A stretch of DNA of 64,000 nucleotides, from NCBI RefSeq assembly GCF_013376105.1, contig NZ_JAAMFM010000005.1, positions 124,001 to 188,000 of the forward strand, written 5' to 3'. Shown here piece by piece: positions 24,236 through 40,532 of this stretch; within the stretch, counting starts at the first letter, position 1, and each line of letters opens with the position of its first letter. The DNA comes from Arthrobacter wenxiniae (GTDB taxonomy: Bacteria; Actinomycetota; Actinomycetes; Actinomycetales; Micrococcaceae). The translations under genes were made by a program, and so were the position numbers. Under the pieces are notes generated by a model. It searched no databases. It was given only the letters and a program-made list of their open reading frames with translations, and was not told where the DNA came from.

Positions 24236-25039
24236 ATGTCCGCGATCATCACCGGCGAGGCCGTTGTCCTGGAGCTCCGCCCGGCGTCCTTTGCCGCCCG
24301 GTCGCTGGGGTCCGCCATCGACGTCCTGGTGACCATTGCGCTGATCATCGGCGCCATGTTTGTCATGGGCGCCGTGCCGGACCTCCTGGACGGGGCCGCG
24401 GCCCGCACTGTCATCCTGGTGACGCTGGTGGGGATTGTGGTGGCGCTGCCCATCGCCGTGGAGACCCTGACGCGCGGCAAGTCCGTGGGCAAGCTGGTCA
24501 TGGGGCTGCGGATAGTGCGCGACGACGGAGGCTCCATCCGCTTCCGGCAGGCCTTGGTCCGTGGCCTCCTGGCGGTGTTTGAGATTTACCTGTCCCTGGG
24601 CTCCGTGGCGTTTTTGGTGTGCCTCTTCAACGGCAAGTCGAAGCGGCTGGGCGACATGATGGCCGGCACGTATGCCATCAGGGACCGCGCCCCCTCCGCC
24701 GGGCCGCTGCAGGTCCACACCGTCCCGGCCTTGGAGTCCTGGGCATCGCTGGCCGACATCGGCCGGCTGCCGGATCCGCTGGCCCGGCGGATATCCGTCT
24801 ACCTGCGCCAGGGCGCGCGGATGGCGGCCACTTCGCGTGCTTCGATGGGTGTTGCGCTGGCGGAGGAGGCCGCCGCCTTTGTGGCGCCGCTGCCGCCGGC
24901 CGGCACTCCCGCGGAGGTTTTCCTGGCGGCCTTGATGTCCGAGCGCCGCAGCCGCGAATTCGCCCGGCTTTCCGCCGCGGAAGAGCAGGCTGCGCACCTG
25001 CGGGCACGCCTTGAGGGCCATGGGGTGGGAAGCAAGTAG
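24236..25039 (+). CDS. RDD family membrane protein
   Basis: A 267-residue protein. The RDD domain occupies about residues 16-155. The name-giving pattern appears as AARSLGSAID near residue 21, with membrane helices at about 27-48 and 60-80 and a third near 110-130, and a closing RLGDMMAGTY motif at about 137. The C-terminal 110 residues are soluble, helical and charged, which is usual for the version paired with SpoIIM in actinobacteria. Its function is unknown; transport or membrane-assembly roles have been proposed for the family. Divergent from spoIIM with 54 bases between start codons. Confidence 0.88.
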   Translation: MSAIITGEAVVLELRPASFAARSLGSAIDVLVTIALIIGAMFVMGAVPDLLDGAAARTVILVTLVGIVVALPIAVETLTRGKSVGKLVMGLRIVRDDGGSIRFRQALVRGLLAVFEIYLSLGSVAFLVCLFNGKSKRLGDMMAGTYAIRDRAPSAGPLQVHTVPALESWASLADIGRLPDPLARRISVYLRQGARMAATSRASMGVALAEEAAAFVAPLPPAGTPAEVFLAALMSERRSREFARLSAAEEQAAHLRARLEGHGVGSK

Positions 25040-25542
25040 TCCTGCCGAGTACTCGGAATCCGGGTGCGCTTGGGTGGCGGGCTTGGGTGTTCGTTGGGTT
25101 CTCGGGGTTTTTTTCTTGTTGGGGTTCCTTTTTTAAACCTTGATCTCATGTGCCCTGAATCTGGCAGCCACCATGATTTCGCCAAGAACACGGCCATGCC
25201 CTCCGGCTGGTTGCCGGCATACGGGCGGGATGGACTCCTGAGGCACTCGATAAGGACCATTGAGCCCACCCACTGCTTCAAGCTGGCGGGCTCCGATGGA
25301 AGGACGCACTTCCGACTTGCGCCGGATTGCGAGGAAAGAGAATCCAAATCGCTGGGCGGGTTGTTTTGGCCAAACTAATTTCACGATATTTTTTGATTTA
25401 CCGTTTGATAACTTTGATTAATACCTTCATTTTTCCCCAATTTTTCCCCAATTCGCAGGCGATATTCGCAAGGATTGGTGTACCGCTGATAAAGTTAGAC
25501 GAATAACGTATGGCTTGGCAATCGATGGATCAGGAGATGAAC
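25040..25542. other. Intergenic segment: unidentified open stretch and AT-rich leader
   Basis: About 500 bases without a gene I can name. A 12-base palindrome CCGAGTACTCGG (25045-25056) follows the RDD stop. Bases about 25133-25384 are open in several frames on both strands and have lower GC. A minus-strand frame with KSWWLPDSGHMRSRF is the most protein-like, but I cannot identify it. From about 25380 to 25500 the DNA is strongly AT-rich, with an 11-bp tandem repeat ATTTTTCCCCA twice (25429-25450). This is the probable promoter region of the MarR gene, and a TAAAGT at 25490 could be its -10. Confidence 0.45.
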
Positions 25543-26070
25543 ATGGCACTGACCGTGGTGGTGGGTGATGATGAGGGGGCTCCGATCAATCCCGTCGAAG
25601 AACTGGCCGGCGAATTGCGGCGTCTCATCATTTGCGGGGAACAGTTCAGGAACCTTCGTGCGAAGGAACTCCAGGTGGGGTCCAGCGACCTTGTGGCACT
25701 GGGGCATCTCCATAACGGCGGTCCCATGGCGCCTAAAGAATTATCGGCGCTGATGGGCGTCTCCTCGGGTACCATGACAGCTTTGCTGGATCGGGGGGAA
25801 AAGGCCGGTTTGCTCAGGCGCGAACGAAACCCGGAGGACCGGCGTGGACTTCTCATCCATCTCACCCCTGCCGGGCTGCAGTCGGTCCAGTGGGTCTACG
25901 AGCAGTTCGATGCCGTGGTTTGTCAGACTCTCATCAATGTTCCGGCGCCCAGTGTCGATGTACTCCGTTCCCTCCTGGAACAGCTCAACGAGACACTGAG
26001 CTGCGTTGCCGACGATGACTATAACGCTTCTGCGGGTCTACAACAGCCGTTGCAGCTGCACGAGGCTTAG
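25543..26070 (+). CDS. MarR-family transcriptional regulator
   Basis: A 175-residue winged-helix regulator. Helices 2-4 of the HTH lie at about residues 45-85 (DLVALGHLHNGGPMAPKEL, LMGVSSGTMTALLDRGEKAG), and the wing carries the MarR hallmark NPEDRRGLLIHLTPAG at about 90-105. The ATG at 25543 is preferred because AGGAG lies 6 bases upstream. In-frame ATGs at 25510, 25525 and 25537 are alternatives. No clear target operon adjoins it: upstream is unidentified AT-rich DNA and downstream are transposase remains. It may be part of an acquired segment. The ligand is unknown. Confidence 0.85.
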   Translation: MALTVVVGDDEGAPINPVEELAGELRRLIICGEQFRNLRAKELQVGSSDLVALGHLHNGGPMAPKELSALMGVSSGTMTALLDRGEKAGLLRRERNPEDRRGLLIHLTPAGLQSVQWVYEQFDAVVCQTLINVPAPSVDVLRSLLEQLNETLSCVADDDYNASAGLQQPLQLHEA

Positions 26071-26138
26071 CCCCACTGCCGTTCGGTTGAGGTGTGGCGT
26101 TTGGTGTCAGGTCGGCGTGTCTTGGGGGGAATTGGGTG

Positions 26139-26194
26139 TGGCTCCTGTTCGGGTAGTTCGGTCCGCCAGGACTGATCTACCCGAACGGGAGCCA
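26139..26194. repeat. 18-bp inverted repeat ahead of the IS4-like remnant
   Basis: TGGCTCCTGTTCGGGTAG is repeated in inverse orientation 20 bases later with one mismatch, just before the GTG that opens the transposase remnant. It may be the subterminal or translation-control hairpin of the original insertion sequence. Confidence 0.7.
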
Positions 26195-26200
26195 CCAGGC

Positions 26201-26800
26201 GTGATTCTGCCATCAATCACGATTCGGGGGTCTTTGCGCCCGGGCATTTGGGCGAGTTGACGTGTGTGGTCCCGTTCGCCGATCAGGGCTGGAAGCGGGT
26301 CCACTCCCGCCGGGTTGCCGGAGCCGGTGAAGCCCTTCGGCAGCGACATTGCGTGAGGCGATGCGCCGTTGCGCGAACTGTTCACCCTCGTCAAGGGGCC
26401 CGCGGGGGCCGGAGCGCACCAGGTGACACGGCTTGCCGGAAGGCTGGTCGCGGCCATTGACGGCACGCAGTTGGCCGAAGCCGGCACTGAAGCGGCCCAG
26501 GTCCGGTTCCTCAAAACACACCAGGCCGAACGGTGTGCCGGGGTATCCGATGATCCGGACGGTAGCCATCCTCACGGCCGGTACCCGCTCGATCCTTGAT
26601 GCAGCGTTCGGTGCCGATTGCGTTCGGTGCCGATGCGGTGGGTGAGCTGAGCTACGCCCATCAAGCCATCTCGTGCCTGTGCGATGGCATGGTGCTGCTC
26701 GGCGACCGGAACTTTGCCACCCACAAATTCTTCGCAAGAGTCGCCGCCACGGGATCTGATTTCCTGATCCGAGCCAAGACAGGCAGGGCTGCCGGTGCGG
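26201..26800 (+). pseudogene. IS4-family transposase, degenerate 5' part
   Basis: Pieces of one transposase appear in shifting frames. VILPSITIRG at the start is followed after a frameshift by APGHLGELTCVVPFA, then LRELFTLVKGPAGAGAH and RLVAAIDGTQLA (the first catalytic-Asp region), then after another shift GYPMIRTVAILTAGTRSILDA, and finally VLLGDRNFATHKFF (the second Asp region) and FLIRAKTGR. This order is that of IS4-type DDE transposases. About 80 residues after the first block are missing. A 16-bp tandem duplication at 26604-26635 explains one frameshift. The 3' part with the catalytic Glu is absent, and the remnant runs straight into a different transposase fragment. Confidence 0.8.
26604..26635 (+). 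repeat. 16-bp tandem duplication inside the transposase remnant
   Basis: GCGTTCGGTGCCGATT is followed by the same 16 bases with the last base changed. Because 16 is not a multiple of three, it shifts the frame between the LDAAFGAD and AFGADAVGELSYAH blocks. It is a directly visible inactivating mutation. Confidence 0.85.
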
Positions 26801-26875
26801 GGCATGGACGCGGCAGTGCATGGACGCCGCAGTGACCGTCACGACCGAGAAGGGAACCCGCACCAGCCCATCGCG

Positions 26876-27307
26876 CAACGGAACTTCACGGACCCGGACG
26901 CGCGGATCATGAAGACCGCGGACGGTTCCAACCACCACGCCTGCACCGGCCAGGGCGTCGTTGATGCCGACCACCAGGTCATCAACGCCACCGAGCTGAA
27001 CAATGTTGCCATCGACATCCAGCAACTCGAACCGATAATCAAGCGCGCCATGGACACGGTCGGGGGGACGCCCAAGACCTGGAGCGCCGATGCCGGGTTC
27101 TGCCCGGCAGCCAACCTCGAACACGTCAAGGACGTGGAAGCGGAGCATGCGACGGAGTTCTTCATCTCCGCCCGCCGCATGAAACACACCGCCCCTATCC
27201 CTGACTCCCCGCGGGGCCGGATCCCGGCCAACGCCACCCCGGGCGAGCGCATGGCCCGGAAACTGAGAACCAAAAAGGGCAAGAAGATTTACGTCCGGCG
27301 CAAGGCC
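26876..27307 (+). pseudogene. IS1182-family transposase, internal fragment
   Basis: One continuous frame reads QRNFTDPDARIMKTADGS, then VVDADHQVINATELNN, TWSADAGFC (the middle catalytic Asp region) and ERMARKLRTKKGKKIYVRRKA. This is the characteristic order of IS1182/IS1182-like transposases. The N-terminal third is missing, and the frame leaves the family right after VRRKA, where intact copies continue with the conserved IVEPVFGQ catalytic-Glu motif. It is abutted to the IS4-like remnant within about 75 bases, so two elements were joined by nested insertion or deletion. Confidence 0.82.
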
Positions 27308-27903
27308 TCAAACTCCACACCTACCGCACCCACCAGGCCACCTGAGAGAGAAAGGAACCAGAAAAAGCAGCCACCACAGCCTCTGCAGCGCCCGTCAGGT
27401 GCCGCCGGGAGAGGCCAAGGCACCACAACGACATCCACGGACCCACAAACCGGCGCCGGCCCGGCCCGGAACTGACGAATTCCGTCACGACACGACGTCG
27501 AACCTCAAACCACTACCGGCACACGCACCCAGGCGCGGGTGCTCCGGGAACTTCGATGGAGGAACTGGCAACGATCAACGTGGCCGCAGGCGGGCACCCT
27601 TCGTGGCCATAAGGCGCATGATCGCCGCAATCCCCTTGGCCGCCCGTCGGTAATTTCTTGTGGCCGCAAACAGAGCTTTTCAAAAAAATTTAGTGGCTTC
27701 AAATATTGGTGCAACAAAGGCCCTTTCCGCGGAATCCACACGGAAACCGGGGAAAGAACCAACGTAATTTCCGAGTGGAACACAGCACTTTCCCTGGCCT
27801 CCCCCACTCCTGAAGGGCTGCCCTTGGGCTCCTGTCCGTTGGCATGCTTGGATACGCACGGCCAAGCCTGCCGCCCTGAACGGCCGCCGGTCCACGCGTG
27901 TTC
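27308..27903. other. Decayed intergenic stretch after the transposase remnants
   Basis: About 600 bases in which I see no supported gene on either strand. There are short open frames, but none has a ribosome site together with recognisable content. An A/T-rich patch lies at about 27675-27710 (TTTTCAAAAAAATTTAG). It is probably decayed mobile-element flank. Confidence 0.5.
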
Positions 27904-30021
27904 CTATCTGGGTGGATTAAGGGTACTTGAGGCAGGGGCCGCGGGATGAGGTCCCTGCCCCTTGGCAACGCCCGTGTGCGGCCTGCAGTCGAAAAGGACG
28001 TAAGTGCCGGCTGCGGGGCGTTCCGGGCCGTTTCGCGGAGGCATATATTGGCTTTCGGGGACCGTGCTGCAATTCGCCCCGACCCAGGCACGGATGCCGT
28101 TCACGTTGCCGGACCGTGAATCGACCTGCCGGGAGCCAGCCGTCAGCAGGAGAAATCGCAAGGACCCCGCCGCGACCAGTCGGGCGATTTGCTGCGGGTT
28201 AACGTTTGGTGCCGTGGATGAGTAGCCGCCCACTGTCAGGAGGCGGTTTCCTCCTTCCATAATGAGGGGTGCGCTGGTGCGCCAGGAATCTGTGGCCAGA
28301 ATGAAGCCGCCAGGAACGTGTGTGTTGAGCCTGGCAAAGCGGTACATGTCGGATCCCGCCGCCGCGAGGTCCAGTATCCTTCGGTCGGAGTTCAGGCCCG
28401 GACCATAGATCCCGGGGTGGAGGGGGTCGATCGATGCCTGGTCGAGTGTCGCCGGTCGGGGCCCGGCGTAGGCATCGTTCGCGCTGCCATTGAAGCTGGG
28501 ATCAAGGGTGGACAGCGACCAGAGCACTGGGCCTGCCAGAACCACGCCAACGGCGAACACGGCCAATACCTCCAAGGTGTGCCCGCGGCCGAGCGTCGCC
28601 GTGCGGTTGGCTCCGACAAAAGAGAACAGGCTACTGCCGAAGCCAGCCGCTCCAATGACGGGCAGCAGCCACGGAGCAAGGCCCCAGTCTCCTGAAGACT
28701 CGATGATTGCGATGGTCCAGAGCGTCTGGATCAGCAAGTACAGGGACAGGGCGTACCTGGCTCTGCTGCCCGGCAACACCAAACTCCTCCATAGCAGTCC
28801 GCCACCAATGGCGGCCAGCGCAGCGATCGGCAGTGCGAGGCTGGCCAGATACACGGGGTGAGGTATGGCGGTGACACCCATGAGCGTCCCCTCCGTCAGC
28901 AGCAGGCCCGCACTCACCAGCAGCCCGGACTTCAACTTTCGGGCCGCAGGAACGGGAAGAAGGTTCCGGCGCAGGTAAAGGACGCCCAGAACCAGGCCCG
29001 CCAGCGCCAGCGGGTACAGCCATCCGATCTGGGTGGAATAGTACGGAAGGAACAGCTTAAGCGGACTGTGAACCAGCCACCCCTGTCCAGGACCGACATC
29101 CCCTGCGCCTCCCACTTCCTTCCCGTCAGCACCCGGCGCCAGAGCCCCCGGGACAAGGCCGGGAAGGTAGCGGTTCAGTCCATTGAACCCAAAGACCATG
29201 GAGTAGATGTTGTTATCCACGGTGCCGTCGATGAAGGGCCTGCCGGGTGCGGGCACGAGCGCGATGGCGCTCATCCAGGACAGTGAAACGGCCACAGTCA
29301 GCACGGCAGCAGCACACAGATCCCGAACCTTCCTGAGCATTGTGTGCCTCTGCAGGATCATATAGACGACGGCCAGGGAAGGAAGAATCAGCCAGGCCTG
29401 CATCATTTTGGCCTGAAATCCCAGACCCACCGCCACCGCACTGAGGAAGAGATAGCCGGTGCGGCCGGTATCCAGCGACTTCTGCCAGGCCAGCACGGCC
29501 AGCGTCGTGCACAGGGTAAGCATCGCGTCCTCCATTGGGTGGGAGAACATGGACACCAGAAGTGGAGTGGTGGCCATCACGGCAGCACCGAACACGCCGG
29601 CCCGAAACCCGGCCCAGCGGCGGATCACCGCGTAGGCGGCCAGGATGGTGGCCTGTCCCTCCAACGCCTGGGGAAGGCCCAGGGCCCAGGGGTTAAAGCC
29701 CAAGGCCCGTACCGCAAGTGCCTGGGGCACCAGGAACCCCGCAAGTTTATCCAAGGTGATTGTGGCCGAGGGGTCGAAGGCGCCGAAGAAAAAGGCCCGC
29801 CAGTTCCCGGACATGCTCCGGGCAGCTGAGGCGTAGTAGTCGGAATAGCCGCCAAACCCAATGTCATACGCGAAAATCACACCTGATCCGCCCATGATCA
29901 GAGCCAGACATACGTAGACCCACCACGGGGCAGCGACCCGGGCCCCGGACAGTCCCGGCAGGAAGGCGCCCCTGAAACTGTCAACACCGCGTGAAGCTCG
30001 AGCAAGTCGCCAGCCAAGCAA
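27904..30021 (-). CDS. GT39-type membrane glycosyltransferase (YkcB-like)
   Basis: A 705-residue polytopic protein with about twelve hydrophobic segments. The first helix ends in GFGGYSDYYASAARSMSGNW. It is followed by the acidic loop FDPSATITLDKLAGFLVPQAL at about 68-88, the pattern of the ArnT/PMT-like glycosyltransferases called YkcA/YkcB, which use a polyprenyl-phosphate-sugar donor. The soluble C-terminal 170 residues lie outside the membrane. I chose the TTG at 30021 because GGAGG stands 6 bases before it; an ATG at 30147 would add 42 unlikely residues. Acceptor and sugar are unknown. It is divergent from the Tad pilus operon and might glycosylate surface proteins such as pilin, but that is speculation. 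Confidence 0.82.
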   Translation of the reverse strand: MLGWRLARASRGVDSFRGAFLPGLSGARVAAPWWVYVCLALIMGGSGVIFAYDIGFGGYSDYYASAARSMSGNWRAFFFGAFDPSATITLDKLAGFLVPQALAVRALGFNPWALGLPQALEGQATILAAYAVIRRWAGFRAGVFGAAVMATTPLLVSMFSHPMEDAMLTLCTTLAVLAWQKSLDTGRTGYLFLSAVAVGLGFQAKMMQAWLILPSLAVVYMILQRHTMLRKVRDLCAAAVLTVAVSLSWMSAIALVPAPGRPFIDGTVDNNIYSMVFGFNGLNRYLPGLVPGALAPGADGKEVGGAGDVGPGQGWLVHSPLKLFLPYYSTQIGWLYPLALAGLVLGVLYLRRNLLPVPAARKLKSGLLVSAGLLLTEGTLMGVTAIPHPVYLASLALPIAALAAIGGGLLWRSLVLPGSRARYALSLYLLIQTLWTIAIIESSGDWGLAPWLLPVIGAAGFGSSLFSFVGANRTATLGRGHTLEVLAVFAVGVVLAGPVLWSLSTLDPSFNGSANDAYAGPRPATLDQASIDPLHPGIYGPGLNSDRRILDLAAAGSDMYRFARLNTHVPGGFILATDSWRTSAPLIMEGGNRLLTVGGYSSTAPNVNPQQIARLVAAGSLRFLLLTAGSRQVDSRSGNVNGIRAWVGANCSTVPESQYMPPRNGPERPAAGTYVLFDCRPHTGVAKGQGPHPAAPASSTLNPPR

Positions 30022-30214
30022 AGCACACCTCCGTCCATCAATATGTCCGCAACAAAGAAGTCCCCTCCACAATCTCCCCGCCCCGCCTATCCCCGAAGAT
30101 GGAACATGGAAGTGAAGAGGAAGGAAAATAAAAACACAAATATTCATGTAACTCGGTATTCAACTTGATCGTTTCCCGTGTTACATTTGTCACAGAGTAC
30201 CAGCGCTGGGCTGC

Positions 30215-30240
30215 TACTCTTCACTTTTACTCTTCACTTT
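30215..30240 (+). repeat. 13-bp tandem duplication before flp
   Basis: TACTCTTCACTTT occurs twice in a row just upstream of the AGGAG of the pilin gene. It may affect leader length or promoter spacing for the Tad operon. A TTGTCA at 30188 could be the -35, but no good -10 is visible. Confidence 0.7.
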
Positions 30241-30255
30241 TCAGGAGCAACCCCC

Positions 30256-30465
30256 ATGGTCTCGATCTTTGCCACCCTCCACACCCTTGGCTTCAACCTG
30301 CAGCAGCGCCTGCGCCGCGGGGAAACCGGAGCGACCGCCGTTGAGTATGCCCTGCTCGTCGGCCTGATCGCCGTCGTCCTCGTCGCCGGCATCACCCTCT
30401 TCGGCCCTGCCCTGAGCACCTTCTTCGGCGGACTCGCGGCCAAAACCTTCAACGCACCTGCCTGA
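30256..30465 (+). CDS. flp: Flp/Fap-type pilin
   Basis: Structural subunit of the Tad (Flp) pilus. The 69-residue prepilin has a short positively charged leader (ending RRGETGATAVEYALL) and a prepilin peptidase site: cleavage is expected just before or within the G-ATAVEYALLVGLIAVVL block, where Glu at +5 and the Tyr after it are the Flp signature. A single hydrophobic helix follows, then a short polar tail. The ATG at 30256 has AGGAG 8 bases upstream, which rules out the longer upstream frame. It is the first gene of the eight-gene Tad operon. Confidence 0.93.
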   Translation: MVSIFATLHTLGFNLQQRLRRGETGATAVEYALLVGLIAVVLVAGITLFGPALSTFFGGLAAKTFNAPA

Positions 30466-30484
30466 CAGAATTGCCGGTTCCGGG

Positions 30485-30967
30485 GTGAATCGTCTCTGGA
30501 ATGTCGATCCGGTGCGGGGCGCCGCCGCGCCCCGCACCAGGTTGCGGGTGGCCTTGGACCGCCTGTGCAAGTCGGAGAAGGGCGCGGCGGCGGTGGAGTT
30601 CGCCCTCGTCGTTCCCGTCCTGTTGCTGCTGTTGTTCGGCATCATCGAATTCGGACGCGTTTACAATACGCAGATCGAACTAACCGGAGCCGCCCGTGAA
30701 GGCGCCCGGGTGATGGCAATCCAAAACAATTCCACGGCAGCCAAGGCAGCAGCCCGTGCCGGGGCTCCGTCGCTGAATCCTGCCCTGACGGATGCGCAGA
30801 TCTCGGTGCTGACGAATGGGGCGGATCCGTCCTCCTGCCTTAACACAATCGGGACGCCGAACCTGACTGTCACGGTCACGGCCACCTATCCGCTGACGTT
30901 CCTCACGGGAATGTTCGGCAACAGCATCACCATCACGGGAAAGAGCGCAATGCAATGCGGAGGATAA
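30485..30967 (+). CDS. TadE-like pseudopilin
   Basis: A 160-residue minor pseudopilin. A charged leader (about 1-32) ends in SEKGAAAVEFALVVPVLLLLLFGIIEFGR, the TadE motif, with the prepilin-type cleavage region before AAAVEFALV. An extracytoplasmic domain follows, with one Cys pair (about 122 and 158). TadE helps pilus assembly and is processed by the same peptidase as Flp. The GTG at 30485 is the assumed start, though a GTG at 30512 is possible and neither has a strong ribosome site. It begins 19 bases after flp and overlaps tadG by 13 bases. Confidence 0.88.
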   Translation: MNRLWNVDPVRGAAAPRTRLRVALDRLCKSEKGAAAVEFALVVPVLLLLLFGIIEFGRVYNTQIELTGAAREGARVMAIQNNSTAAKAAARAGAPSLNPALTDAQISVLTNGADPSSCLNTIGTPNLTVTVTATYPLTFLTGMFGNSITITGKSAMQCGG

Positions 30968-31896
30968 GAACACTTCTTCGCCGCCGTCTGCGCCAAGAGC
31001 GTGGTGCCGTGGCCATCATTACGGCCCTGTCCATGGTCGTTCTGCTTGGCTGCGCCGCAATGGTCATCGATGCCGGCAGCATCTACTTCGAACGCACCCA
31101 ACTCCAAACCGGCGCCGACGCCGCAGCCCTGGCCATAGCCCAAAACTGTGCCGCCGGGAACTGCGGAGATCCGAACGCCACCGCGACTGCCCTGGCGGGC
31201 CAGAACAACCACACCAGCAGCGCCAGTGGCACCGCTACCCTTGACCTGGCCGCCAACACCGTCACCGTGAACACCGGCACGCTGACCGCGGCTGGGCAGC
31301 ACGTCCTGACCAACACGTTCGGCGCCATTCTCGGGATTCCTACGAGCACCGTCACGGCCCGGGCCACGGCGAGCTGGGGCAGCCCCGCGGCGGCCACCGT
31401 GTTTCCCTTCACCACCCCGCGCTGCATTTATGACCAGACGCCGCCAGGGCAGGTGTTATGGATCACGACTACCAGTTCGTGTACGGATGCCTCCGGAAAC
31501 GTCGTCCCGGGCGGATTCGGATGGCTCGATCAGAGCAGTCCCTGTGCGGCCGTGGTAGACCTCACCGCCGAGGTGGGCAGCCAGCCCGGTAAAAGCGGGC
31601 CCCCCTGTAACATGTCCACGATCGTCAATACGACGATCCTGATTCCCGTCTACGCGGTTGCATCAGGGCAGGGGACGAACGCTACATACTCCATCTCTGG
31701 CTTCGCCGCCTTCCATGTCACCGACTGGAGCTGGCCCGGAAGTTACACCCAATCCCCCTCGGCTGCCTGCGACAAATGTACGGGCATCAGGGGCTACTTT
31801 AGCCAACTCGTCACCCTTGACAGTGCCCGGCACTGGTCTGTGACCCGGCTCGGCGGGCCCGCCCTAAATGCCTCTTTTGTTTCCCTCAGCCAGTAG
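30955..31896 (+). CDS. TadG-like pilus assembly protein
   Basis: A 313-residue protein with an Arg-rich N-terminus and one membrane anchor (ERGAVAIITALSMVVLLGCAAMVIDAGSIYF in outline, about 15-45). This is the TadG/RsaF pattern, with the ADAAALAIA motif at about 55. The remainder is extracytoplasmic, Thr/Ser/Gly-rich, with several Cys (CAAGNCG, CDKC). No VWA domain is recognisable in this copy, unlike the VWA fragment found 6 kb downstream. Overlap with tadE implies translational coupling. Confidence 0.85.
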   Translation: MRRIRTLLRRRLRQERGAVAIITALSMVVLLGCAAMVIDAGSIYFERTQLQTGADAAALAIAQNCAAGNCGDPNATATALAGQNNHTSSASGTATLDLAANTVTVNTGTLTAAGQHVLTNTFGAILGIPTSTVTARATASWGSPAAATVFPFTTPRCIYDQTPPGQVLWITTTSSCTDASGNVVPGGFGWLDQSSPCAAVVDLTAEVGSQPGKSGPPCNMSTIVNTTILIPVYAVASGQGTNATYSISGFAAFHVTDWSWPGSYTQSPSAACDKCTGIRGYFSQLVTLDSARHWSVTRLGGPALNASFVSLSQ

Positions 31897-31909
31897 GAGC
31901 TTCTTTTTC

Positions 31910-32665
31910 GTGAAAGTCCGGATCTTGGCCGCCGTGGCTGCCGTCCTGTTGGCTGTCATTGGGGTGGCAGTGCTGACAAATTATGTCGCCAACGCGGACC
32001 AGCGCGCCCTCAAGGGCGCCCAGGCCGTGCAGGTCTATATTGTCCGCTCCCGCATTCCGGCCGGCACCGCCGCAGATAAGCTGCCCCAGCTCGTCGCCGA
32101 ACAGGCACTGCCAGCCAACGCCGTCGCCCTCGGTGCCATCAGCAACCTGTCCCAACTGGCCGGAAGGGTACCCTCGACAGACCTTCTCCCAGGTGAACAG
32201 TTGCTCAACAGCCGATTCGTCAACCCGGACTCACTCAAGGACAAGAACGCAGGCCAAGTCCCCCTGCCGGACGGGATGCAGGAAGTGACCATCCAGCTTG
32301 AACCCCAACGGGTGGTCGGAGGCCAGCTCGCGCCCGGTGACACCGTCGGTGTCCTTTTTTCCTTTGGCCAAGGCCCGGCTGGGGGTCCGGTTGGGCCCGT
32401 CACCCATATGGAAATGCAGAAAGTCCTCGTCTTGACAGTCCAGGGTGTCCCGGCGGCCAATGCCCCGTCCACCGGAAACGGGCAGGCCGGCTCCGTGCCT
32501 GCCGTCCCTGCAGGCACGGTCCTGGTCACCCTGGCCCGGACCGCACCCGATGTGGAGAAAATCGTCTACGCAGCCGAAAACGGCAAGATCTGGCTCAGCC
32601 GGGAACCATCAACAGCCTCGGAAAACGGAGCCCGGGTATTGAACCGGGACGGCGTCTTCAAATGA
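31910..32665 (+). CDS. cpaB: CpaB/RcpC-like Flp pilus assembly protein
   Basis: A 251-residue protein with an N-terminal membrane anchor (about 5-25) and an SAF/CpaB region: VYIVRSRIPAGTAADKL (about 43), then LPGEQLLNSRFV (about 90), then RVVGGQLAPGDTVGVLF (about 135). CpaB forms periplasmic or extracytoplasmic scaffolds in Tad systems. The GTG at 31910 has AGGAG 10 bases upstream, overlapping the tadG stop. It overlaps the next gene by 4 bases (ATGA). Confidence 0.88.
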   Translation: MKVRILAAVAAVLLAVIGVAVLTNYVANADQRALKGAQAVQVYIVRSRIPAGTAADKLPQLVAEQALPANAVALGAISNLSQLAGRVPSTDLLPGEQLLNSRFVNPDSLKDKNAGQVPLPDGMQEVTIQLEPQRVVGGQLAPGDTVGVLFSFGQGPAGGPVGPVTHMEMQKVLVLTVQGVPAANAPSTGNGQAGSVPAVPAGTVLVTLARTAPDVEKIVYAAENGKIWLSREPSTASENGARVLNRDGVFK

Positions 32666-33876
32666 GCAGGTATCTGCTGATCACCTCTGACACCGGCTTC
32701 GCCCGGCGCCTGGACGCTGCTGCGACAGGCGAACTCGCCGGTGAGATTCACCACTGGAATGACCCTGTTTTCCCCCGACAACCCGAAGTCCTCTTCGCCG
32801 GCCAACGCAACACCAGCCGTCCCGAAGTTGTCATTCTGGGCCCCGGCACTGCCATGGAGGAATCCCTGTCCCTGGCCTCAGCCCTGGACCACTCCCACCC
32901 CGAGGTCAGCGTCCTGCTGGTCCATCCCGGCGGAGCGGACATCGTGCTGGCCGCCATGCGCGCCGGTATCCGTGATGTCCTTGACCCGGGCGCCGAGGCC
33001 ACCGATGTCACAGCGCTGCTGCATCGGGCCGTCCGTTCGGCCGCGGACCGGCGTTCGGCCTTTACCGCCTTGCCAGGTACCGCCGATCCGGGCGTGAAGG
33101 GCCGGGTTATTTCGGTCCTTTCCCCCAAGGGCGGTGCCGGCAAGACCACTGTGGCCACAAACCTTGCCGTCGGGCTGGCGGCTTCCGCCCCGCATGCGAC
33201 CGTCCTGGTTGACCTCGACCTTCAATTCGGGGACGTCGCCAATGCGATGCAGATCGCGCCCGAGCAGTCAGTGGCAGAGGCCGTGAGCGGGGCCGCAACC
33301 CAGGACACCATGGTCCTCAAGTCGTACCTGAGCCCCCACCCGACGGGTGTTTATGTCCTGTGCGCCCCGGATTCCCCTGCCGCTGAGGCGCAGATAACGG
33401 CCGCCAACATCGGCCACCTTCTTGACCAGCTTGCCAGCCAGTACAGTTACGTTGTCATCGATACCGGCGCCGGACTCTCCGACCACACCCTGGCCGCCTT
33501 GGACAAATCCACCGACTACGTCTTTGTCGCCGGCATGGACGTGCCCAGTATCCGCGGCCTGCGCAGGGAACTGGACGTTCTCAAGGAACTCGGGATGGTT
33601 CCTCCCAGCCGGCACGTCGTCCTTAACGGTGCCGATCCCCGGGACGGGCTGTCCATGCCCGACGTCGAAACGACCCTGGGCCACAAAGCCGACATAGTCA
33701 TCCCTTTCAGCCGTGCCGCCCGGCTGGCCACCAACCAGGGCACACCACTGCTTCAAGGCACCCCGAAGGACCGGGCAACCAAGGAACTGCGTCGGCTGGT
33801 TGAACGTTTCATCCCGGCACCCGCACCGAAACGCAAACGCCTGAGCAAAGCCCGACACAGAAGGGGAATGCCATGA
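32662..33876 (+). CDS. cpaE: CpaE/TadZ-like ParA-family ATPase
   Basis: A 404-residue localisation ATPase. The N-terminal part (about 1-140) is a degenerate response-regulator-like receiver domain. The C-terminal MinD/ParA domain has a deviant Walker A, SPKGGAGKTTVATNLAV (about 153), DLDLQFGDV as Walker A' (about 188) and a YVVIDTGAGL Walker B (about 269). TadZ places the pilus machinery at a cell site. A basic tail (KRKRLSKARHRR) ends the protein. It overlaps cpaF by 4 bases. Confidence 0.9.
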   Translation: MSRYLLITSDTGFARRLDAAATGELAGEIHHWNDPVFPRQPEVLFAGQRNTSRPEVVILGPGTAMEESLSLASALDHSHPEVSVLLVHPGGADIVLAAMRAGIRDVLDPGAEATDVTALLHRAVRSAADRRSAFTALPGTADPGVKGRVISVLSPKGGAGKTTVATNLAVGLAASAPHATVLVDLDLQFGDVANAMQIAPEQSVAEAVSGAATQDTMVLKSYLSPHPTGVYVLCAPDSPAAEAQITAANIGHLLDQLASQYSYVVIDTGAGLSDHTLAALDKSTDYVFVAGMDVPSIRGLRRELDVLKELGMVPPSRHVVLNGADPRDGLSMPDVETTLGHKADIVIPFSRAARLATNQGTPLLQGTPKDRATKELRRLVERFIPAPAPKRKRLSKARHRRGMP

Positions 33877-35345
33877 ATCTCGCCGAACGCCTGGCCGCCG
33901 CCCACGGCACCGCACCCGCCCCGCCCGGCCAGCCCCCGCAGGAACCACAAACACTGGGCCCACCCCCTTCCGAGAGGGCAGTCCCCCCTCCTCCCGCGGA
34001 CGGTCCTGCCCCTGCGTCCCGGTCAAAGATGAATGCACCGGTTCTCTCTGAACCCCACGACGCCCTGGCGAAACTCAAACAACGCGCCGGTGAAGAGCTT
34101 TTTGAACGGATGGGCGCCCGTCTCCTCGATGCCTCCCTGACCGAGGAATCCCTGTACGAAATGGTCCATGAGGAACTGGTCCGGGTGGTCGACGCGGAAG
34201 CGATCCTGCTAAGCAGGGACGAACGCAAACGCCTGATCAAGGAAGTGACCGACGATGTCATCGGTTACGGCCCCCTGCAACCCCTACTCGACGACGACGA
34301 CGTCACCGAAATCATGGTCAACGGACACCAACGCATCTATGCCGAGCACCACGGCAAACTGACCCTGACCGGTGTCCGGTTTGCCTCCGAGGCGCATCTT
34401 CGCCGGGTGATTGAAAGGATCGTCTCCAAGGTGGGGCGCCGGATCGATGAGTCGTCACCATTGGTGGACGCTCGGCTCTCCGACGGCTCACGGGTGAACG
34501 CGGTCATCCCGCCGCTGGCCGTGCACGGATCCTCACTGACCATCCGTAAGTTCGCCACCGATCCGTTCCAGGTCAACGATCTGATCGATTTCGGTACCCT
34601 CTCCCCCGAAATGGCCGAACTGCTCGACGCCTGCGTCAAAGGCCGGCTGAACATCATTGTTTCTGGTGGCACCGGCACCGGGAAGACCACGCTTCTGAAC
34701 GTGCTCTCCTCCTTCATCCCCGCAGACGAGCGCATCGTCACCATCGAAGACGCCGTGGAGCTGCAACTACAGCAGGACCACGTCGTCACCCTGGAAAGCC
34801 GCCCGAGCAACATTGAAGGCAAGGGCGAGATCACCATCCGGGACCTGGTCCGCAACTCCCTGCGAATGCGGCCGGATAGGATCGTGGTCGGAGAGTGCCG
34901 CGGAGGGGAAAGCCTGGACATGCTCCAGGCCATGAACACCGGCCACGACGGATCCCTGTCCACCGTGCACGCCAACTCGCCGAGGGACGCCATTTCCCGG
35001 CTGGAGACCCTCGTGCTGATGGCCGGGATGGACCTGCCGCTGCGCGCGGTGCGGGAACAGATTGCCTCCGCCGTGGACGTGATCGTCCAGCTAACCCGGC
35101 TGCGCGACGGCACGCGTCGGGTCACCCATGTCACCGAGGTCCAGGGCATGGAGGGAGAGATCGTGACCCTGCAGGATACGTTTGTGTTCGACTACAGCGC
35201 CGGACTGGACCACAACGGCCGGTTCTTGGGCAAACCCATACCCACCGGGGTGCGTCCGCGCTTCACCGACCGCTTTGAGGAACTCGGCATCGAACTCTCG
35301 CCCCAAGTATTTGGCGGCGCGGCTTCCACTCCGGGTCGGTGGTGA
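33873..35345 (+). CDS. cpaF: CpaF/TadA secretion ATPase
   Basis: Hexameric motor that powers Flp pilus assembly. The 490 residues start with a Pro-rich tail (about 1-55). An N-terminal domain follows (IGYGPLQPLLDDDDVTEIMVNG, about 129). The RecA-like ATPase domain has Walker A SGGTGTGKTTLLN (about 263), the Asp box ERIVTIEDAVEL, Walker B DRIVVGECRGGE (about 336) and the His box HDGSLSTVHANSPRDA (about 358). All catalytic motifs are intact. It overlaps tadB by 7 bases. Confidence 0.95.
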   Translation: MNLAERLAAAHGTAPAPPGQPPQEPQTLGPPPSERAVPPPPADGPAPASRSKMNAPVLSEPHDALAKLKQRAGEELFERMGARLLDASLTEESLYEMVHEELVRVVDAEAILLSRDERKRLIKEVTDDVIGYGPLQPLLDDDDVTEIMVNGHQRIYAEHHGKLTLTGVRFASEAHLRRVIERIVSKVGRRIDESSPLVDARLSDGSRVNAVIPPLAVHGSSLTIRKFATDPFQVNDLIDFGTLSPEMAELLDACVKGRLNIIVSGGTGTGKTTLLNVLSSFIPADERIVTIEDAVELQLQQDHVVTLESRPSNIEGKGEITIRDLVRNSLRMRPDRIVVGECRGGESLDMLQAMNTGHDGSLSTVHANSPRDAISRLETLVLMAGMDLPLRAVREQIASAVDVIVQLTRLRDGTRRVTHVTEVQGMEGEIVTLQDTFVFDYSAGLDHNGRFLGKPIPTGVRPRFTDRFEELGIELSPQVFGGAASTPGRW

Positions 35346-36364
35346 GAGGGATGCTTGGTGCAGGCACCACCAGCACGGATTTCCTTCCCCTGGAGGGCCA
35401 GGGCGTCACCGCGACGGGCCCGGCCGCGGATTCCCCGATCCTGCTAATCCTCGGGCTGCTGCTGTGCTGCGCCGCGCTGGCCGCCGTTTACCTGGCCATT
35501 TTTCCGCCATGTGCGAAAATCTCCCTCCAGCGGACGGTTTCCCCCTCGCAACAGCCCTCCGTTCTGGCCGGGTTCACCGCTACTGCCACGCGGGTCATTG
35601 AAAACCTACTGACCCAGATCCGTGGGGCACCTGCCCTCTCAGCCGCGTTGGAAGCCGCCGGACTCCGGTTAAAGCCAGCCGAGTTCATCATTATCGTGGC
35701 CTCGTCCACCGTTGTCGTTGCAGGGGTCCTCCTCCCCATCGGCGGGCCGCTGACGGCGCTGTTCATCGTCGCGACAGGGGGCTTCGGCGCAAAATTTCTC
35801 CTCGGCTACCTTGCCGGGCGCCGACGTGCCTCTTTCAACGACCAGCTCGACGACTCCCTTCAACTCATGGCCAGCGGCCTTCGGGCCGGGCACAGCCTGT
35901 TGCGCGCCATTGATGCGCTGTCCGCTGAAGCGGAAACCCCGACGTCGGAGGAATTCGCCCGTATCATCAATGAAACCCGCCTCGGCCGTGACGTGGGCCA
36001 AGCCCTGGACGCCACGGCCGAACGCATGAAGAGCGAAGACTTCCTCTGGGTGGCCCAGGCCATTGCCATCCACCGGGAGGTCGGAGGGAACCTCGCCGAA
36101 GTCCTCGACCAGGTCGGCCAAACCATCCGTGAACGCAACCAGATCCGGCGCCAGATCCAAACGCTCAGCGCCGAGGGCCGCATCTCGGCCCTCGTTTTGA
36201 TGATCCTGCCCTTCGGACTCGGCGGCATCCTTGTCCTGATCACCCCCGGCTACCTCACCCCCCTCTTCGACGGGCCCATCGGCTACGCCATGGTCGCAAC
36301 GGCTGCCATCCTTCTGGTCGCCGGCGGGCTTTGGCTGCGCAAAGTGATCAGTTTCAAATTCTGA
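35339..36364 (+). CDS. tadB: TadB inner-membrane platform protein
   Basis: A 341-residue T2SSF-family membrane platform protein of the Tad pilus. Hydrophobic segments lie at about 25-50, 115-165, 275-300 and 305-335. The cytoplasmic T2SSF domain (about 180-265) has LQLMASGLRAGHSLLRAID and AIHREVGGNLAEVLDQVG, the family signatures. The GTG at 35339 or the ATG at 35351 could be the start; both leave the first helix intact. It partners TadC in the membrane and lies 15 bases before it. Confidence 0.9.
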   Translation: MVRGMLGAGTTSTDFLPLEGQGVTATGPAADSPILLILGLLLCCAALAAVYLAIFPPCAKISLQRTVSPSQQPSVLAGFTATATRVIENLLTQIRGAPALSAALEAAGLRLKPAEFIIIVASSTVVVAGVLLPIGGPLTALFIVATGGFGAKFLLGYLAGRRRASFNDQLDDSLQLMASGLRAGHSLLRAIDALSAEAETPTSEEFARIINETRLGRDVGQALDATAERMKSEDFLWVAQAIAIHREVGGNLAEVLDQVGQTIRERNQIRRQIQTLSAEGRISALVLMILPFGLGGILVLITPGYLTPLFDGPIGYAMVATAAILLVAGGLWLRKVISFKF

Positions 36365-36379
36365 CCGGAGAATGAACCC

Positions 36380-37264
36380 ATGTCCCTGACCATCGTCCTG
36401 GCCATCGTGGCCACCGCCCTGGCACTACCCGTCCTGGGCTGGTCAATCCTCTCCCCCAGGTTCTACCGTGACCCTGCAGCCCATCGGAACCTTTCCCGGG
36501 GACTCCTGCCATCCCCGGCAACGGTAGAAACTGACCGGGGACATCCCTTCGCCGATCTGGCCAGACGATTTACTCCCGGCAGTTTCATCGCCCGGCTGGA
36601 CAGGCTCCTCGTTCGTGCGGGAAGACCCCCGGCATGGCCCATGAAGAAGGTCCTCTCCACGAAATTCCTCCTCGCCGTGGCAGCCGCCTGCCTCGGTATC
36701 CTCTACGCGGCGGGCTCCGCTGGGGCGGGCCGTTACCTGTTGGCCGCCGCCGCCATCACGCTCTGCTACTTCGTGCCGGACCTGCTTCTCTACAGCCAAG
36801 GTACAGAGCGGCAGGCCGCGATCGCCAAAGGCCTTGCGGACACACTGGATCAAATGACGATCGCTGTTGAAGCCGGGTTGGGATTTGAAGCGGCCATGTC
36901 CAGAGCCGCCTACAACGGCAAAGGCCCCTTGGCCGAGGAACTCGTCCGGACCCTCCAAGACATGCAGGTTGGCCGGTCCCGCCGGGAAGCCTACACCGAC
37001 CTCGCCGCACGGACCAGCGTCACCGACCTGCGCCGCTTTGTGCGGTCCATCATCCAAGCCGACATGTACGGCATCTCCATTTCCGGAGTACTACGCACCC
37101 AAGCCGCAGAAATGCGGCTCAAGCGCCGACAACGCGCCGAAGAAAAAGCCATGCAGATCCCCGTCAAGGTTCTCTTCCCCCTCATGTTCTGCATCCTGCC
37201 AGTCCTCTTCATCGTCATGCTCGGCCCGGCGGCCATCGGCGTCATCAACACCTTCGTCAAATGA
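36380..37264 (+). CDS. tadC: TadC inner-membrane platform protein
   Basis: A 294-residue T2SSF-family partner of TadB. Membrane segments lie near the N-terminus, at about 93-135 and at the C-terminus (about 260-290). The cytoplasmic domain has LADTLDQMTIAVEAGLGFEAAM (about 155) and FVRSIIQADMYGISISGVLR (about 214), the TadC signature. It is the last intact gene of the pilus operon. Its stop overlaps the ATG of a 36-residue frame (ATGA). Confidence 0.9.
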   Translation: MSLTIVLAIVATALALPVLGWSILSPRFYRDPAAHRNLSRGLLPSPATVETDRGHPFADLARRFTPGSFIARLDRLLVRAGRPPAWPMKKVLSTKFLLAVAAACLGILYAAGSAGAGRYLLAAAAITLCYFVPDLLLYSQGTERQAAIAKGLADTLDQMTIAVEAGLGFEAAMSRAAYNGKGPLAEELVRTLQDMQVGRSRREAYTDLAARTSVTDLRRFVRSIIQADMYGISISGVLRTQAAEMRLKRRQRAEEKAMQIPVKVLFPLMFCILPVLFIVMLGPAAIGVINTFVK

Positions 37265-37371
37265 ACACCGCCACAACAGCTTGGACTACCGCCCCACCCT
37301 GGATCCTCCTGCCCACCAAATTGGCCGGACGGGGCATCGGCATCTGGATCCGTCAACCAGTCAAAGACTAA
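37261..37371 (+). CDS. Small 36-residue open frame coupled to tadC
   Basis: The ATG overlaps the tadC stop as ATGA, the same coupling used throughout the operon. The encoded peptide begins MNTATTAWTTAPPWILL and has no recognisable domain. It could be a real micro-protein, a leader remnant of the following prepilin peptidase gene, or chance. Low confidence. Confidence 0.3.
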   Translation: MNTATTAWTTAPPWILLPTKLAGRGIGIWIRQPVKD

Positions 37372-37396
37372 AACCTGACCCGCACTCCATGAACCG

Positions 37397-37687
37397 CTGA
37401 CCGCGCTCGTATTCGCCCTGCTTCCCTGGCGCCTTGGATTCACCCCACAACTGCTGGCCTACCTGTTATGCGCAGCAATCGACGTCCCCCTGGCAGCCTT
37501 CGACCTTCACCACCGTCTCCTGCCCAACCCACTAGTCGCCCCCGGACCCGGGACCACCGCGTCCTTACTCATCGGCGCCTGCACCCTGGGTACCGGATGG
37601 GATCCCCTGCTGCGGGCCGCCCGTGGCACCCTGGCGCTGTCTAGCGCTTATCTGGCCCTGGCCATCATCAGCCCCCAGAAAACTTGA
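37397..37687 (+). pseudogene. Truncated A24 prepilin peptidase
   Basis: The frame reads LVFALLPWRLGFTP, then the first catalytic block AAIDVPLAAFDLHHRLLPN (Asp before the H-x-LPN motif of type IV leader peptidases), then two hydrophobic segments. It stops at LALAIISPQKT, exactly where intact enzymes continue with the G-x-GD-x-K second catalytic motif. That half is missing, so the product would be inactive. No ATG or GTG start is in frame; the open stretch begins after a TGA at 37376-37378. It is positioned as the last gene of the Tad operon, the usual place for the pilus peptidase. The next 290 bases hold nothing recognisable. Confidence 0.8.
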
Positions 37688-37979
37688 CGAATGCCCCGGT
37701 TGCCGGCGCGAGTGTGACAGTCGGCAAAATCGCTGATGGTTGGGATGGCGAACCAGCGGAGCGCTGAGGGAGTGCCCACGGTTCCATGACCAAACAGCTA
37801 CATGTTGACAGGGAGCAGAACACCTTGTTTGCAGAGGCCCATGACCCTTCCGGTTTCTCAAGCATCCTGCCCCCATTGGGTTGAACGACACATCGTCGCC
37901 GTCATGCCCGGATAAACGCAAGCGGACTGAAAGTTTTAGCCGGCGGAGTTTGACTTTTCGACCCCCGGCGATTACATGA

Positions 37980-38306
37980 CTGGAGGGCCGGGGCTCCCGC
38001 CCGGTCGCGGCCCGCAAGGCGATCATCTTCGAGACCGACGGCCAGCCCAATGAACAGAACATCACGGGAATCACGTCGATTGACACACTGGGCGGCATCG
38101 GAAGCACCGATGGGGCGGTGGCGTGCAACAAGCTGCTGCAGGTCGCCGACAGTGCCAAGGCCCAGCACGTGCTGATCGTGACGGTCGCGTTTGGGGACGC
38201 GACCACCGCCACCTGCGCCGCCGAGGGAGCGGAGCTTGGTCCGATCTTCGTTTCCGCCGTCAACGCCATCAGCCCCAACCAGCACCTGCTGCGGATCCCG
38301 GACTGA
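37980..38306 (+). pseudogene. C-terminal remnant of a VWA-domain pilus protein
   Basis: An open stretch beginning after a TGA codes for VAARKAIIFETDGQPNEQN, then CNKLLQVADSAKAQHVLIVTVAFGD, then a tail ending in LLRIPD. The IFETDGQPNE segment and the following ADSAKA..VLIVTVAFGD strand are typical of the last third of a von Willebrand A domain in TadG-like pilus proteins. The MIDAS-containing front part is absent. An ATG at 38118 could start a 62-residue product but would not give a folded domain. It is a relic of a longer Tad locus. Confidence 0.7.
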
Positions 38307-38312
38307 GCGCCT

Positions 38313-38813
38313 TCAGCCCACGAGCATGGCGAGCGCGCCGGCGAGCATGAACGGCCCGAACGGGATCTGTGTCTTGCCGGTGCCGCGGCGCAGGATCATG
38401 AGCGCAAGCCCCCACAGTGCCCCCAAGAGGAACGCCAGCACAGTCCCCCACAGCACCGCGCCCCAGCTGACAAAGCCCAGGTACAGGCCGAGCACAAAGG
38501 CCAGCTTCACGTCTCCGTAACCCATCCCGGCCGGGTACACCAACCTGAGAACCACGTAGGCGGCCCAGAGCACCACACCCCCCAGGACGGTGCGGAAGGC
38601 GGCCCCGGCGTCATGCATGAAAAGGCTGGCCAACAGCAGGAGCACCCCGGCAATGGCGGCGGAGGGGAACACGATCCGGTTGGGCAGCAGCTGGTGCCTG
38701 ATGTCGATGACGGTTAGCCGCCAGGCCATCACCAGGTAGTGGAGGCCGGCAATCAGCACCAGCCAGAAGGCGAGCGGCGCGGTCCCCCAGAGGACGCGCA
38801 GAACAGTGATCAT
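38313..38813 (-). CDS. A24 prepilin peptidase, intact
   Basis: A 166-residue membrane peptidase that cleaves prepilin leaders. Both catalytic blocks are present: TVIDIRHQLLPNRIVFP (first Asp at about 36) and GMGYGDVKLAFVLGLYLG (second Asp at about 101). About five hydrophobic segments are visible. The short form without the methyltransferase domain is typical of Tad systems. It lies on the opposite strand to the pilus operon and next to a truncated homologue. It may therefore supply processing for Flp and TadE, and is inferred to have replaced the broken copy. The ATG has TAACAT 7 bases upstream. Confidence 0.9.
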   Translation of the reverse strand: MITVLRVLWGTAPLAFWLVLIAGLHYLVMAWRLTVIDIRHQLLPNRIVFPSAAIAGVLLLLASLFMHDAGAAFRTVLGGVVLWAAYVVLRLVYPAGMGYGDVKLAFVLGLYLGFVSWGAVLWGTVLAFLLGALWGLALMILRRGTGKTQIPFGPFMLAGALAMLVG

Positions 38814-38820
38814 AAGCCCG

Positions 38821-38826
38821 ATGTTA
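38821..38826 (-). promoter_or_regulatory. Putative -10 element of the prepilin peptidase gene
   Basis: TAACAT lies 7 bases before the ATG at 38813, which fits leaderless transcription independent of the Tad operon. Confidence 0.45.
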
Positions 38827-38855
38827 CGGCACCGGATCCGAGGTGCGGCGGAGGG

Positions 38856-40100
38856 CTACTTGTTGGCGTACCGGGCGAACGGGATATTCCAGTCTCCGAA
38901 GCCGTCCGTGGGCGCGATGGTGTTGGTGGGGTGGCCCGTGCCTACCGTGTGGACGAGGTCGCCGGGCCTCATGTTGTTGAACACCCAGGAGGCGCCCTCG
39001 CGGTCCAGGCCGATGCAGCCGTGGGAGAGGTTGACCTTGCCCAGGTACGGGATGGCGACGGGCGCGGCCAGGTGGATGAAGATTCCGCTGTTGGCCAGGC
39101 GCGTGGCGTATTCGACCTTGAGCTTGCCGTAGTAGGCGGGGTCCCCGGGCTTGAGGCCGATGGTGGCGGCGTCAAACGTGGCGAAGCGCTGCTTGTCCGC
39201 CGTGAGGACCAGGAAGCCGGCTGCGGAGGGGAAGCGCTCGTCGCCCATGGAGGCCAGGAACGTCCGGGCCAGTTTGTCGTTGATGAAGATGTGGACGACC
39301 TTGGCCGAGGCGTCTGCCTCCATGACGACCTTGTCGCCGATGTTGATGGTGTTGGTCTTGTTGAAGTTGCCGATTTGGCCGTTGCCGTAGTCGACGCCGA
39401 ACAGCTTGATGTCAACCTTCAGCGCGGTGTTGGCCGGCCAGTAGCTCGCGGCGCGGTAGCGGGCCATGGTGTCCGAGTACCAGTGGAACGCGCCCTTTTG
39501 CCCGGTGGCGGAGGTGATCCTGATGGCCTTCTCGACGGCGTCCTTGTTGGCCACCGGTTCGCTGAAGTGGAATTCGAGCGGCTGGGCCACGCCCACGGTG
39601 GAGCCGTTGGCCGGGTACATCCACATGTCGGCCTCATTGGCGGCCGGGACCGTGGAGAAGGTGCTTGCCTGGGTTTCCAGGGTGCCGTTGTCATCCATGG
39701 TGGTGACGCTGAACGTGTAGTCGGTGTTGAAGGCCAGCGCGGAGCCGGAGACCCACTTGCGGCCGCCGTCCGAAAGTTCACCGTCCGTGGTGGCGCCGGT
39801 TTCGGTTTCCTTCAGGATGGCGCTGTGGATTGTCCCGGCCTGGACCTGGGCCACGACCGGCACGGCCGGGTTGTAGCTCACCGTGCCCTGCTTGGGCTCG
39901 AGGGCAAGTTCCACGGGCGTGGCGGGAGGCGTGGTGGGGGCTGCCACCGTGGGTACTGTGGCGCTGGCAGGGTTCTCCGGGAGCCAGGACGTGGCGGTGG
40001 CCGCACCGACGCCGCCCGCTCCGATGGCCAGGACAAATGCGGCGACGCCTGCAATCTTCCAGCCTCTGCGCGGCTTCCGGACGGATCCCAACTCCGGCAT
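38856..40100 (-). CDS. L,D-transpeptidase with Ig-like domains
   Basis: Secreted peptidoglycan cross-linking enzyme making 3-3 bonds. The 414 residues begin with a basic stretch and a signal anchor (about 13-35). Two immunoglobulin-like domains follow (about 55-265), then a YkuD catalytic domain (about 270-400) with the active-site Cys in LSHGCIGLDREG (about 369) and an upstream His in IFIHLAAPV. This is the layout of mycobacterial LdtMt2. The ATG at 40100 has a run of G residues about 6 bases upstream, so an open frame extending 51 codons further is not used. It acts outside the membrane on the wall. Confidence 0.92.
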   Translation of the reverse strand: MPELGSVRKPRRGWKIAGVAAFVLAIGAGGVGAATATSWLPENPASATVPTVAAPTTPPATPVELALEPKQGTVSYNPAVPVVAQVQAGTIHSAILKETETGATTDGELSDGGRKWVSGSALAFNTDYTFSVTTMDDNGTLETQASTFSTVPAANEADMWMYPANGSTVGVAQPLEFHFSEPVANKDAVEKAIRITSATGQKGAFHWYSDTMARYRAASYWPANTALKVDIKLFGVDYGNGQIGNFNKTNTINIGDKVVMEADASAKVVHIFINDKLARTFLASMGDERFPSAAGFLVLTADKQRFATFDAATIGLKPGDPAYYGKLKVEYATRLANSGIFIHLAAPVAIPYLGKVNLSHGCIGLDREGASWVFNNMRPGDLVHTVGTGHPTNTIAPTDGFGDWNIPFARYANK

Positions 40101-40532
40101 GCATTCCCCCCCAAATCGGTGGACTAACTCCACTGTGGCAGCACGTGACGTTACACGGCCAATGAGCAATTTTACGGCACGGGGCCGCTGCCGGCGGTTA
40201 GGCGGGGCGTTTTGGGGGTTGCGATTGCGTAACCACTGGGACTCAGTGGTCACTCGACCAAGGCAATCCCATGGTCGGTGAACCAGTCAGTTGGCAGCCT
40301 CGTCTCAACATTCAGGTTGTCCATGAACGCGCCGGGCTTCTGCCTGACCTGCACCTGCGGCTTTGGCAAGCACACCGTTTTGTTTCGGCGAGAGTGGGCC
40401 CTTGATACCCTCCGCCCGTGCAGCGCGGGAATTGTTAGGCAAAGCAGCCATGGTCATCGCCCCTTGTCGCTTTCTCCTCCACGGTACCCCGGTGTGCCAT
40501 GATGAGATTGGTGCCCTTGTATGATGCCAAAT
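40101..40532. other. Intergenic gap with an optional 50-residue frame
   Basis: About 430 bases between the L,D-transpeptidase and NYN genes. The only candidate is a minus-strand frame at 40305-40457 (MTMAALPNNSRAARAEG...) preceded by AAGGGG and GGAGG sequences. A second overlapping frame ends LPTDWFTDHGIALVE. Neither is recognisable, and they may be fragments of a decayed gene. No repeat or RNA gene is seen. Confidence 0.3.

Follow-up and report, generated by a model that had tools for sequence, protein, structure and literature searches.

Tad pilus loci without a prepilin peptidase of their own have been described before. Neither tad locus of Micrococcus luteus has a peptidase gene, and its extracellular Flp complexes require a single tadV encoded at an unlinked site (PMC4322843); a survey of type IV filaments notes the sharing and exchange of prepilin peptidases and a possible location of tadV outside the tad locus (PMC6668835). 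The principle of peptidase sharing is familiar; what the locus described here adds is a traceable scar. Like the M. luteus tad-1 and tad-2 loci, which depend on a peptidase encoded elsewhere, the Tad operon of Arthrobacter wenxiniae analysed here lacks a working peptidase, but its lineage carries one, lost in this copy, and the likely substitute lies 6 bases off in convergent orientation, where a former operon would have left it. Likewise, one system's peptidase serves another across the type IV filament superfamily; against that general feature, the present locus is a single case that can be traced, in which the broken original has survived.

The window is a stretch of 64,000 nucleotides, whose own genome (G000) was compared with a genus set of 23 genomes and a family set of 395 genomes. 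The operon of genome G006 (locus L035) is orthologous to that of the window, with 74-87% protein identity and the same gene order and upstream MarR genes, but it lies at another chromosomal place and its 228-aa peptidase is intact. The operons of G001 (L042) and G013 (L044) share with the window the slot, the convergent peptidase, the neighboring L,D-transpeptidase gene (LDT) and a VWA gene homologous to the tail preserved in the window; however, they are complete and of another lineage. The features of the window are collected in Table 1.

Table 1. Features of the window around the Tad operon and its right-hand junction
Feature	Positions	Strand	Evidence
RDD-domain gene, left core border	24236..25039	+	match in 23/23 genus genomes
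MarR-family regulator	25510..26070	+	Pfam MarR
IS1182-family transposase remnant	26795..27475	+	NCBIfam NF033551, 1.3e-17, only positions 233-335 of 488
PMT_2/YkcB-like glycosyltransferase	27904..30147	-	Pfam PF13231, 6e-18; between MarR and flp
flp, major prepilin	30178..30465	+	Pfam Flp_Fap; cleavage motif GATAVEYALL
tadE	30485..30967	+	Pfam TadE, 2e-19
tadG-like gene	30955..31896	+	Pfam Tad, 8.5e-11
cpaB/rcpC-like gene	31868..32665	+	G006 orthologue, 76%
tadZ	32662..33876	+	G006 orthologue, 78%
tadA ATPase	33873..35345	+	G006 orthologue, 87%, dN/dS 0.09
tadB	35339..36364	+	G006 orthologue, 76%, dN/dS 0.19
tadC	36380..37264	+	Pfam T2SSF; G006 orthologue, 83%, dN/dS 0.13
Peptidase pseudogene of the window's operon	37261..37687	+	alignment to G006 228-aa gene; start-codon scan; dN/dS 0.47
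Filler between the two remnants	37688..38011		~324 bases; 37844-38011 79% to G009:C32:18393-18564
Tail of VWA/TadG gene, best read as of former operon	38012..38306	+	alignment to L042, L044; Pfam VWA 5e-4
Intact A24 prepilin peptidase, slot-resident	38313..38813	-	Pfam PF01478, 3.8e-12; orthologues in 7 other genomes, same place
-10-like TAACAT	38814..38835	-	just before peptidase start
L,D-transpeptidase (YkuD), right core border (LDT)	38856..40253	-	Pfam Big_10, YkuD; 23/23 genomes

Pfam matches together with the G006 alignment place flp, tadE, tadG, cpaB, tadZ, tadA, tadB and tadC in a single operon, and the Flp prepilin, the only Flp_Fap match in the window's genome, carries the G/XXXXEY processing site. 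Positions 30234-37264 share 77-83% DNA identity with the G006 operon. The dN/dS values reckoned against G006 range from 0.09 to 0.21 across the operon genes (flp was left out, with just 13 codons aligned), and these genes are under purifying selection. In G006, tadC is followed directly by a full A24 peptidase gene that overlaps the tadC stop, and the more distant operons of the window's kind in G009 (L040) and G014 likewise have a peptidase after tadC; the lineage ends in tadC-peptidase, as G006 shows, with its own TadG upstream. MarR homologues adjoin flp of like operons at L035 (two copies), L093 and L039, and by this neighborhood the MarR-family regulator travels with the operon lineage now in the window. 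The PMT-like glycosyltransferase gene has no counterpart between MarR and flp in G006. Near the IS1182 remnant lies a 58-base imperfect palindrome (26138-26195, 83% to its own reverse complement), and the RDD-MarR spacer (25040-25509) has a GC content of 51%, the lowest among the segments compared.

The peptidase fragment after tadC is a pseudogene. Its ATG at 37261, homologous to the G006 start, opens a frame that closes at about 37371, and the body (37379-37687) runs in a different frame from this 5' third, so the gene was frameshifted and not merely truncated. The body comprises 102 codons, contains the first catalytic block AFDLHHRLLPN and has no ATG, GTG or TTG in its frame; it ends ...AIISPQKT* where G006 reads ...ALISPRGLGMGDVKL (...GLGMGDVKL), stopping exactly ahead of the second catalytic block GxGDxK. 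The second catalytic aspartate is absent, no complete frame with both aspartates is present, and the remnant gave no Pfam match. A previous sequence-only reading had noticed the first block and the end before GxGDxK, to which the frameshift and the absent start codon are now added, and it was right that this peptidase is broken and that the DNA between it and the VWA tail was lost. Since the first aspartate block is kept over 102 open codons, the short frame might be taken for a functional truncated protein, but this is hardly credible for a frame with no start codon and no second aspartate, when the relatives have the full-length gene and the dN/dS against G006 is 0.47. The corresponding value for the intact peptidases of G009 and G014 is 0.17, and for their tadC 0.14. 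Over the remnant's columns, identity is 54% between G000 and G006 vs 81% between G009 and G014, whereas tadC identity is alike in both pairs (83% and 84%); against G009, the remnant is 42% identical and the intact G006 gene 52%. Conservation of the short frame under selection, which the sequence-only reading had named as the finding that would speak against it, was looked for and not found. No copy of the G006-type peptidase was detected elsewhere in the window's genome.

The RDD gene and LDT, which flank this region, are convergent core genes and direct neighbors in 14 of the 23 genus genomes. Six genomes carry a Tad operon in the gap, with an orthologue of the 38313-38813 peptidase between operon and LDT, and such orthologues lie beside LDT in 8/23 genomes, the window's included. 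In G004 (L097:8951-9454), the slot peptidase stands alone in the RDD-LDT gap of a genome without a Tad operon of these lineages. In other genera (Arthrobacter, Pseudarthrobacter, Paenarthrobacter), RDD, wherever it was detected, adjoins LDT, and no Tad operon separates the two. The identity of the operon and the anatomy of the slot are established by these comparisons, and the minus-strand peptidase marks the slot and is not a spare copy belonging to the window's operon. No direct repeats or target-site duplications longer than 10 bases were found between the island borders. In G018 (L171), the slot is occupied by unrelated cargo of about 8 kb with, by eye, ABC-transporter-like and histidine-kinase-like genes, which suggests that it is a general insertion hotspot. 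Tandem duplicates of LDT occur at the slot border in G001, G011, G015 and G022.

The resident peptidase has both catalytic motifs (IDIRHQLLPN and GYGDVK) and the TadV-type build, with 166 aa, the domain starting from residue 27 and no N-terminal methyltransferase domain; Pfam gave no other domain above the cut-off, and a sequence search against solved structures gave no match. Its two motifs and the Pfam match suffice to assign the family. It is under purifying selection, with dN/dS values of 0.14-0.28 against most orthologues and 0.41 against the orphan copy in G004. A TA(A/G)CAT element a few bases 5' of the ATG, at about the same spacing, recurs in 5 of the 8 orthologues and fits a leaderless transcript, so that TAACAT is possibly a leaderless promoter; a sigma-70 pattern scan found no full promoter for the peptidase, and only the conserved -10-like element speaks for one. 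Thus the earlier description of a complete opposite-strand peptidase with both motifs, 6 bases beyond the VWA gene and with its own -10-like element, holds, the element through its conservation.

The stretch facing this peptidase is, as the sequence-only reading had seen, the stranded last part of a VWA-domain pilus gene, and homology begins at about 38012. Its roughly 97 codons cover the final ~143 residues of a 495-aa protein except for 45, which an in-frame deletion near 38216 has removed when G001 and G013 serve as reference; the earliest start codon of the tail is a GTG at 38118, and the N-terminal Tad domain plus VWA domain of the full protein is not present. The tail is homologous only to operons of another lineage (G001, G013 and genus g10). 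In G001 and G013, two of the six genomes with a Tad operon in the slot, these have the order flp-cpaB-tadZ-A-B-C-tadE-VWA; the VWA protein at their end has 489-495 aa, and only a few bases separate its stop from that of the peptidase, precisely the position of the tail in the window. From MarR through the peptidase remnant GC3 is 0.67-0.79, but the VWA tail, the resident peptidase and LDT have 0.87-0.90, which puts a composition border at the junction. Compared with G014, LDT is 86% and the slot peptidase 89% identical, tadC only 50%. Across genomes, the identity pattern of the resident peptidase follows that of LDT weakly (r 0.33, p 0.07) and shows r -0.09 (p 0.68) with tadC. Compared with G009, however, the peptidase is 84% identical and LDT only 63%, so the peptidase may itself have been exchanged at times.

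Between the two remnants, the sequence-only reading had placed 290 bases of nothing. A gap before the VWA gene does exist, but it measures about 324 bases, since VWA homology starts from about 38012 and not from 37980, and it is not empty. When 37680-38015 was compared with the 395 family genomes, the sole good match was the G009 stretch given in Table 1, which is intergenic and lies on the same contig as G009's like operon, at another position relative to it. No open frame is common to the filler and the G009 stretch, and 37680-38015 matched neither plasmids nor Rfam. A possible hidden gene of 237 aa on the minus strand (37565-38278) was rejected, as it has no NCBIfam or PHROGs match and lies antisense to pieces that are unrelated to one another.

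The peptidase fragment and the VWA tail derive from Tad operons of separate lineages, and the junction is therefore a scar between the incoming operon and earlier remains. For the VWA tail together with the resident peptidase, the best reading is that they formed the right-hand end of a previous occupant. We consider it likely that an incoming Tad operon, whose own peptidase gene is dead, sits in the slot of a former one, and that the resident peptidase substitutes for the lost one. We infer the following order of events. In the ancestor, the RDD-LDT slot would have held a Tad operon with a VWA-type tadG as its last gene, and a short A24 peptidase next to LDT would have faced it in convergent orientation. 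An operon of another lineage, with MarR, flp to tadC and its own peptidase, would then have arrived; of the former occupant, only the peptidase and the final ~97 codons of the VWA gene would have remained, and the incoming operon's own peptidase would have been broken. The older operon may have been replaced outright, or the two may first have lain in tandem before the older was deleted; no intermediate genome with both operons side by side and an unbroken junction was found. Two tandem Tad operons, one with a VWA gene, occur in G373 (L095), which belongs to another genus.

The sequence-only reading had instead derived both remnants from a single tadC-peptidase-VWA operon, in which one deletion took the end of the peptidase together with the larger part of the VWA gene. 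The remnants do face one another at a short distance, the arrangement expected from a deletion, and a tandem of two operons, such as that of G373, would give the same layout if it preceded the deletion. Even so, a single operon cut once seems quite unlikely, because the VWA gene belongs to the operon lineage of G001 and G013 and because relatives of the window's lineage do not show the supposed order: no VWA gene follows the peptidase in L035 or L036, and L039 ends too early to tell. One deletion is also not enough for what is observed, as the peptidase is frameshifted and has lost sequence in its first third, the filler at 37844-38011 is foreign and the VWA tail has a 45-codon gap, all of which need further events. 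Frameshift, truncation, filler and VWA-tail gap together indicate at least four events at the junction.

If an incoming operon did replace the former one, the locus offers a traceable example of a pilus operon becoming dependent on a peptidase not its own, with the broken original and the scar still present. It would illustrate one route by which a peptidase gene becomes parted from a tad operon, a state reported as typical for actinobacteria. The window's genome contains just two A24 peptidases, the resident one and a universal one (G000:C45:198276-198770), so only the resident one can be dedicated to the operon. Each of the 9 genomes whose tadC belongs to these lineages has an A24 peptidase beyond the universal one, vs 2 of the 14 others (hypergeometric 55/817,190, ~7e-5, by hand arithmetic that ignores kinship). 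From these gene contents, 38313-38813 is probably the peptidase acting on the window's operon. Driven by its conserved promoter-like element, it would cleave the new operon's Flp, TadE and TadG, and with the cleavage done by the resident enzyme the operon's own peptidase would have been free to decay. In our judgement, the sequence-only reading was right that the intact neighbor makes the loss tolerable.

The universal peptidase, about 36 kb away and intact (Pfam 1.9e-13), could process the pilins in place of 38313-38813, which would then have no task and either persist by chance or be in the course of being lost; M. luteus likewise has a single unlinked peptidase for its two tad loci (PMC4322843). 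This alternative, which concerns the acting enzyme only and is compatible with the slot history, strikes us as rather doubtful, since every genus genome with such an operon has a further peptidase besides the universal one, and 38313-38813 keeps both motifs, a low dN/dS and the conserved promoter-like element. With the resident enzyme as the probable substitute, the locus yields a simple genetic test of peptidase sharing. More tentatively, the RDD-LDT slot might be a dock, with a self-promoted peptidase resident at the LDT side and Tad operons of different lineages swapped in; if so, incoming operons would not need to bring their own peptidase and could lose it. G009 has, between tadC and the intact slot peptidase, another copy of the latter that is broken (L040:8848-9286), so peptidase scars at the junction of tadC and slot peptidase recur.
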